Source: a bacterium
Lineage (GTDB): Bacteria; Chloroflexota; Chloroflexia; Chloroflexales; Kallotenuaceae
DNA: 64,000 nt
Assembly: GCA_016781505.1 (NCBI GenBank)
Contig: JADDQF010000102.1
Location: 1-64,000 of the forward strand
Reading direction: 5' to 3'
Both the position numbers and the translations under genes were made by a program. Below, one piece after another: positions 17,695-47,128 of this stretch; positions within the stretch are counted from its first letter, which is position 1; every line of letters begins with the position of its first letter. Below the pieces are notes generated by a model. That model did no database searches. It had not been told where the DNA came from and saw only the letters and a program-made list of their open reading frames with translations.

Positions 17695-17848
17695 TCAGCG
17701 TTCCTCCCCAATGGACATGCTGGCACGCCAGCTGCAATCTGCTGTTTTTCAAGTTGCACATTTTATCACAAAGCTTGCGCACTAGCCGCTTTGCAGGGCA
17801 GGCAGAGTTTTTACCTCCATAGCGCGGCTTTAACCGGCTTTTGCGGGC

Positions 17849-17878
17849 TTGACGGCCAGCGCGGGGCTGTGCTATAGT
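17849..17878 (+). promoter_or_regulatory. Sigma70-type promoter for aromatic operon leader
   Basis: TTGACG-18 bp-TATAGT. Confidence 0.75.
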
Positions 17879-17905
17879 CTGCCCCAACCTGTAAAGGATG
17901 TGAAT

Positions 17906-17983
17906 GTGCTGGGCAAGCATCGCGCTTTCAGCTTTGGTTACTTTTATTTTACGGAGCGAAGCAAGCTGCTGATCGCTGATTGA
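17906..17983 (+). CDS. Phe/Tyr-rich leader peptide (V/M)LGKHRAFSFGYFYFTERSKLLIAD
   Basis: GTG-start ORF with AAAGG RBS 8 nt upstream. F-S-F-G-Y-F-Y-F run, followed by a strong terminator and then aroH-aroF-tyrA. Confidence 0.75.
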   Translation: MLGKHRAFSFGYFYFTERSKLLIAD

Positions 17984-18009
17984 TGCGTGTTCACAAGATT
18001 GTGGAAGCC

Positions 18010-18050
18010 AAGGAGCGTGAGGCAGCAAAGCCCACGCTCCTTATTGTTTT
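18010..18050 (+). terminator. Rho-independent terminator/attenuator upstream of aroH
   Basis: AAGGAGCGTG-A-GGC-AGCAAA-GCC-CACGCTCCTT then ATTGTTTT; perfect 10-bp outer stem. Confidence 0.88.
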
Positions 18051-18124
18051 CTCGCCATCGACGTTGCTGGCGGGTCCGTCGAAACCAAACGGCGACAACC
18101 AACGCCGTGTACTCGGAGGCCAGC

Positions 18125-18502
18125 ATGACGATCCGCTGTTGGGGCATTCGCGGCGCGACCACCGCAGAAGCAAACACCCGTGAGGCCATCCTGGAGGCTA
18201 CCAATGAGCTCTTGTTGCTGCTGATCGAAGCCAACGACCTGCAAAGCTCCGATATTGGCAGCGCCATCTTCACCACTACCCCCGATCTCAACGCCGAGTT
18301 TCCTGCGATTGCCGCCCGACGGCTGGGCTGGCATGATGTTGCCCTCGTGTGCGGCCATGAAATGAGCGTTCCCGGCGCACTTCCTCTCTGCATCCGCGTT
18401 CTCGTGCATTGGAACACCTCTAAAACGCAGAGCGAAATCAAGCATATCTATATTCGTGGCGCCAAAAACCTGCGGCCAGACCGCAGCATTTCTGTCACGT
18501 AG
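18125..18502 (+). CDS. aroH: Chorismate mutase, AroH class
   Basis: [30 protein letters not shown]...[18 protein letters not shown]. Confidence 0.95.
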
Positions 18503-47053: not shown

Positions 47054-47128
47054 GGGGGCTTAGCTCAATGGCAGAGCACGCGGCTCATACCCGCTTGGTT
47101 GGGGGTTCGACTCCCTCAGCCCCCACCA
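47054..47128 (+). tRNA. tRNA with anticodon CAU (probably elongator Met; Ile2 not excluded)
   Basis: GGGGGCT acceptor pairing AGCCCCC, CTCATAC anticodon loop, TTCGACT T-loop, encoded CCA. Confidence 0.93.

Follow-up and report, generated by a model that had tools for sequence, protein, structure and literature searches.

Described cases of amino acid leader attenuation come mostly from Proteobacteria and Actinobacteria, and some from Firmicutes. In the pheL-pheA system of Escherichia coli and other gammaproteobacteria, a Phe-rich leader peptide, three alternative RNA pairings (1:2, 2:3 and 3:4) and a terminator precede a chorismate-branch enzyme. The leader reads Phe only, and the enzyme controlled is the bifunctional chorismate mutase-prephenate dehydratase. 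The pheL-pheA attenuator responds to Phe-tRNA (PMC11802643). In Corynebacterium glutamicum, the aroR leader peptide upstream of aroF forms a ribosome-mediated attenuator (Neshat et al. 2014 in PMC11802643), and that review describes the aroR-aroF operon as responding to Phe and not to Tyr availability. Branched-chain operons of Corynebacterium are likewise controlled by leader attenuation, through the ilvBNC leader attenuators (PMC1262725, PMC11857589). According to a 2010 survey, no amino acid leader attenuator was known outside Proteobacteria and Actinobacteria until the Bacillus case that it presented (PMC2965389); a survey from 2013 proposed that such attenuators arose in gammaproteobacteria and were little transferred (PMC3766115).

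The locus studied here lies in a genome of the order Chloroflexales, phylum Chloroflexota (4.18 Mb in 159 contigs). The window is the whole 64,000-nt stretch of DNA that was analysed, and positions refer to it. We read the element upstream of its aroH-aroF-tyrA operon as a transcription attenuator of the classical ribosome-mediated type that controls Phe and Tyr synthesis, with a probability of about 0.92 judged from sequence and modelled folds. The elements of the locus, in order, are:

17849 to 17878, plus strand: sigma-70-type promoter, TTGACG-18-TATAGT, 10/12 matches with an extended -10 TG
17849 to 17854 and 17873 to 17878, plus strand: the promoter hexamers TTGACG and TATAGT, with an 18-nt spacer
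17893 to 17897, plus strand: ribosome binding site AAAGG, read from the sequence, with the GTG start 8 nt downstream
17906 to 17983, plus strand: leader peptide ORF VLGKHRAFSFGYFYFTERSKLLIAD and its stop codon, GTG start, kept across Chloroflexales
17927 to 17950, plus strand: aromatic run F-S-F-G-Y-F-Y-F, putative sensing codons, from sequence and orthologue scoring
18125 to 18502, plus strand: aroH, chorismate mutase (CM_1), Pfam PF07736
18593 to 19645, plus strand: aroF, DAHP synthase, Pfam PF00793 and PF18152
19688 to 20539, plus strand: tyrA, prephenate dehydrogenase, Pfam PF02153 and PF20463

An earlier note on this DNA had claimed this promoter, the AAAGG site, the GTG-start frame, the mid-leader F-S-F-G-Y-F-Y-F run, a terminator between leader and aroH, and chorismate mutase, DAHP synthase and prephenate dehydrogenase downstream. 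Re-reading of the sequence, folding and the Pfam domains bear out every one of these. A second in-frame GTG, at 17900, is only 2 nt away from AAAGG and for that reason the less probable start. The dense aromatic run is not a product of chance: the window contains 1166 ORFs of 15-60 aa, counting both strands, and none but the leader frame has at least five F/Y per eight residues; its best stretch holds six and that of the runner-up four.

The leader shares with pheL-pheA its Phe codons, the 1:2 / 2:3 / 3:4 logic and a terminator before a chorismate-branch enzyme; unlike pheL-pheA, it carries Phe and Tyr codons, and the Rfam models recognise no similarity. The nearest known system is C. glutamicum aroR, which is alike in its Phe-Tyr-Phe codons and its DAHP synthase operon (PMC11802643). 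It differs in belonging to Actinobacteria; the Chloroflexota leaders have longer mixed F/Y runs and their operon begins with aroH.

None of the Rfam leader families (Phe, Trp, His, Thr, Leu), nor the T-box, matches the window at gathering score, and a search of 17840-18130 with E up to 10 returned just one chance match, on the opposite strand. The only Rfam match in the whole window is a tRNA gene at 47054-47125. Direct sensing of a ligand or of uncharged tRNA by the RNA, as in a riboswitch or T-box, has a precedent in the phylum in the Dehalococcoides T-boxes of trpE and ile-tRNA ligase (PMC2494555), but with no Rfam family at gathering score at the locus and no conserved structure seen beyond the competing hairpins we regard it as next to impossible here.

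Folding of the leader region with alternative structures, which the earlier note had proposed as a check, yields a set of 1:2, 2:3 and 3:4 pairings in the window, formed by the following elements:

17955 to 17963, plus strand: segment 1, 5' arm of the 1:2 protector hairpin, from the fold; partner 17967-17977, -7.7 kcal/mol
17965 to 17982, plus strand: segment 2, 5' strand of the antiterminator, overlapping the last leader codons and the stop
17990 to 18005, plus strand: small hairpin UUCACA-AGAU-UGUGGA between segments 2 and 3, from the fold
18009 to 18026, plus strand: segment 3, 3' strand of the antiterminator, common to the terminator 5' arm and loop
18010 to 18050, plus strand: intrinsic terminator (3:4), stem 18010-18023 / 18030-18042

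The terminator hairpin (18010-18042) contains one bulged A and folds at -23.5 kcal/mol. It is followed by the U-rich tail ATTGTTTT at 18043-18050, whose imperfect U-tract counts against the attenuator reading. On the modelled folds the antiterminator is the end of the leader ORF (17965-17982) paired with the terminator 5' arm and loop (18009-18026). The pairs are 17965-17970/18021-18026, 17974-17977/18014-18017 and 17980-17982/18009-18011, and the predicted energy is -24.8 kcal/mol with the small hairpin at 17990-18005 included. Two points count against this helix in the window itself: internal loops interrupt it, and 4/100 random shuffles of segment 2 pair equally well. A modelled ribosome whose A site holds the last Phe codon (17948-17950) reaches to about 17962 and leaves 2:3 free to form. 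With the ribosome at the stop codon only 3:4 is able to form, and in a ribosome-free full transcript the predicted fold is 1:2 plus 3:4.

For the antiterminator, the earlier note had pointed to two mimics of the terminator 5' arm, GGAGCG (17953-17958) and GCGUG (17985-17989; GCGTG in the DNA), which would compete for the 3' arm. Both exist, and their complementarity is real in the window; the proposed competition for the 3' arm found no support. Unlike 2:3, the mimic at 17953 is not kept outside the window's family, where this place reads mostly ACCAGCC or ACCGGCC; partial-transcript folds give 2:3 and not the mimic pairing, and a mimic could pair with the 3' arm only by displacing an already complete hairpin. 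We consider such an antiterminator extremely unlikely and rejected it as a candidate. The GGAGCG mimic falls largely within segment 1, whose resemblance to segment 3 follows from the ability of both to pair with segment 2.

The preferred 2:3 switch was examined across relatives by testing the stretch after the last aromatic codon against the terminator 5' arm and loop in 79 loci, one of which, L153, had passed the scan with a frame that was judged spurious and removed. In this set segment 2 mostly begins 15-20 nt (about 17) past the last aromatic codon, and its end is usually close to the leader stop codon. It is thus predicted to lie just beyond a ribosome stalled on the run and beneath one paused at the stop. 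The mean 2:3 energy is -25.1 kcal/mol, compared with -21.1 when partners are swapped, -17.2 when segment 2 is reversed and -15.3 when it is shuffled. When the leader tail is recoded synonymously, with the peptide kept and codon frequencies taken from the operon in the window, 2:3 becomes weaker (median z -2.0 over 68 leaders), and therefore the RNA itself appears to be under selection. At most 10 of 200 recodings match the native strength in 46 of the 68 loci, and in the window 4 of 200 do so.

In the alignment, 2:3 pairing is found in 87.8% of cells over 13 positions, compared with 34-53% when the strands are slid by 1-3 columns; these slid controls are somewhat flattered because the pair structure was drawn from one aligned sequence. 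The covariation score of 2:3 is 0.263 against 0.217 when shuffled (0/500), with four doubly changed pairs, and a separate pairing count on 56 sequences agrees with the alignment result. The terminator helix is 91% paired, with 6 of its 12 pairs doubly changed. The 1:2 helix is the least conserved of the three (66% of cells paired); its protector hairpin is found in the window and in many relatives, and in equilibrium modelling it does not win over 2:3. Predicted upstream pairing of segment 3 is 0.74 with the ribosome on the last aromatic codon and 0.23 with it at the stop. Before segment 4 is made, the thermodynamic model favours 2:3 even without a ribosome (mean 0.70), which counts against the switch, and at equilibrium many leaders are predicted to antiterminate even when untranslated.

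These results also bear on a simpler explanation, in which the hairpin acts either as an attenuating terminator that is constitutive or as a stability element of the 5' UTR, the F/Y-rich ORF being incidental. The very stable terminator would suit it, and translation of the leader is itself a prediction. However, the F/Y runs survive extensive sequence divergence, 2:3 covaries and outdoes synonymous recodings, the spacing between aromatic run and segment 2 is fixed, and aroH lineages without the terminator are also without the F/Y leader. We therefore regard this explanation as very unlikely.

For the ribosome-mediated attenuator, sequence anatomy, conservation, covariation, spacing and operon linkage are what the analysis shows. 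A short F/Y-rich ORF lies ahead of a Phe/Tyr pathway operon, an intrinsic terminator separates it from the first structural gene, and a mutually exclusive antiterminator is predicted on the terminator 5' arm, spaced for a stalled versus a finished ribosome. Leader translation, ribosome stalling and the regulatory response are what we infer from this arrangement. RNA polymerase would begin just past 17878, with a ribosome trailing it on the 25-codon leader. When charged tRNA-Phe and tRNA-Tyr are plentiful, the ribosome would reach the stop codon (17981-17983) and cover segment 2, so that segments 3 and 4 pair and transcription ends at 18043-18050. When Phe-tRNA or Tyr-tRNA is short, it would stall within the F/Y run, its leading edge covering segment 1 and leaving segment 2 free; segment 2 would then pair with the emerging segment 3, the terminator would be blocked and aroH-aroF-tyrA transcribed.

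The element is widespread in the order. A gene for AroH is present in 57 of the 61 genomes examined, and a short ORF with a dense F/Y run lies upstream of almost every aroH locus among these 57; leaders of relatives include RFYTYFFYFTSRKPDWSLRIS, SFYRYFYYFTSPHTAWSLRTV, AYYFWFWYFASSPRDWLLRVG and SYAFFSSYFYYFSCHIELSLPTKD. The earlier note had made its reading depend on aromatic codons being conserved in orthologues, and each of the 78 orthologous leaders scored has F as well as Y in its 12-residue core (F 29% and Y 24% of core composition). In 76% of leader loci, compared with 1.2% of shuffles, a sigma-70-type promoter scoring at least 10/12 is found at the matching position. At loci with enough downstream DNA, aroF belongs to the aroH operon, either next to aroH or with one gene between. 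A strong hairpin and T-rich tail follow the leader in nearly all Chloroflexales loci examined, and on a simple scan the terminator is missing at two leader loci, L020 and L064. L020 (genome G058) has the F/Y leader and lacks the terminator 5' arm, through either a real deletion or assembly collapse at the palindrome.

A covariance model of the element, R1, matches the aroH-linked site in 57 of the 61 genomes (E 2e-17 to 9e-4); the other four are those that lack aroH. Two genomes have the site twice because they hold a second aroH fragment there. The next-best matches in the 61 genomes have E 0.008 or weaker. The only further match in the window's genome (G000 C117, E 0.008) is a terminator-like site before an rpmH-like gene and was taken as chance.

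The predicted specificity is for Phe plus Tyr, with Trp codons too in Roseiflexus-like genomes. The phe-type leader and attenuator reading of the earlier note holds up in kind; sensing of Phe alone is too narrow, and the antiterminator differs from the mimics it proposed. In the Roseiflexus-like g7 and a relative (L026, L027, L029, L030, L034, L037), Trp codons stand amid the F/Y codons, as in YFFWFWYF, which suggests that these leaders may sense all three aromatic amino acids. In two genomes of one genus (G051 and G080; L228, L229), aroH is extended by a long stretch at its N-terminal end, aromatic codons in the leader are fewer, and no T-run follows the terminator-like hairpin; this looks like a decaying attenuator.

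Beyond the order, named genomes of Ardenticatenia and of some Anaerolineae and Caldilineae have the leader too. The leader loci of named genomes outside Chloroflexales are:

L112, L115, L122, L123, L124, L129, L134, L139, L145, L161, L169, L174 and L177

No F/Y leader was found at the examined aroH of class relatives outside the order, Dehalococcoidia, Thermoflexus or Planctomycetes. In the class relatives (L081, L082, L085, L086, L094-L097), aroH appears to sit in a trp operon, without an F/Y leader. The ORF before aroH in these resembles the C-terminal end of a TrpA-like protein. Leader presence on the AroH tree needs 9 changes, compared with 51.8 with shuffled labels; the order of gain and loss is not readable from this tree because the alignment is short.

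A second leader was found in the window's genome before an ilvB-ilvN-ilvC-leuA-pheA-(second LeuA-like)-aminotransferase operon (L184, 10447 down to 1523 of G000:C131, minus strand). The operon is preceded by the Leu/Val/Ile-rich leader MKHLFSNLVSLVLLVLLITEDNLACGRH, ending at a stop codon, and the terminator CCCTTCCGCAAGATGCGGAAGGGTTTTTT. The pheA gene of this genome is located inside this branched-chain operon. Of 30 relatives, roughly two thirds have a similarly placed L/I/V-rich leader ahead of ilvB, in many cases together with a terminator; such leaders are missing in family f2 and a few others of the 30. We treat this as a second, candidate leader-peptide attenuator with weaker evidence than the aromatic one, because hydrophobic runs arise by chance more easily than F/Y runs and the case is built on leader and terminator. 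It is paralleled by the ilvBNC attenuators of Corynebacterium (PMC1262725, PMC11857589), from which it differs in phylum and in an operon that goes on with leuA, pheA, a second LeuA-like gene and a class IV aminotransferase. No His-rich frame was found in the 4.2 kb around hisD, which is possibly not first in its operon, and no Trp leader was evident in the 200 nt upstream of the trpE start.

We found no description of leader-peptide attenuation in Chloroflexota in the open-access literature searched, and priority is uncertain; the attenuator is apparently undescribed in this phylum, though of a known kind. Phe/Tyr leader attenuation, known mainly from other groups, probably also operates in Chloroflexales and parts of Anaerolineae. 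A covarying family through Chloroflexales and a second, branched-chain one argue for a wider or repeated origin of such attenuators. Leader-peptide attenuation may be a general and old mode of control in Chloroflexota, covering at least aromatic and branched-chain operons, with one leader integrating Phe and Tyr, plus Trp in Roseiflexus-like genomes, as an OR gate on entry to the shikimate pathway; we hold this broader proposal at even odds. The reported Phe-not-Tyr response of C. glutamicum aroR (PMC11802643) poses a direct question for the Chloroflexota leaders, and many natural leader variants are available for studying two-amino-acid sensing. The covariance model could become an Rfam entry, and Chloroflexota gain a testable account of aromatic amino acid control.
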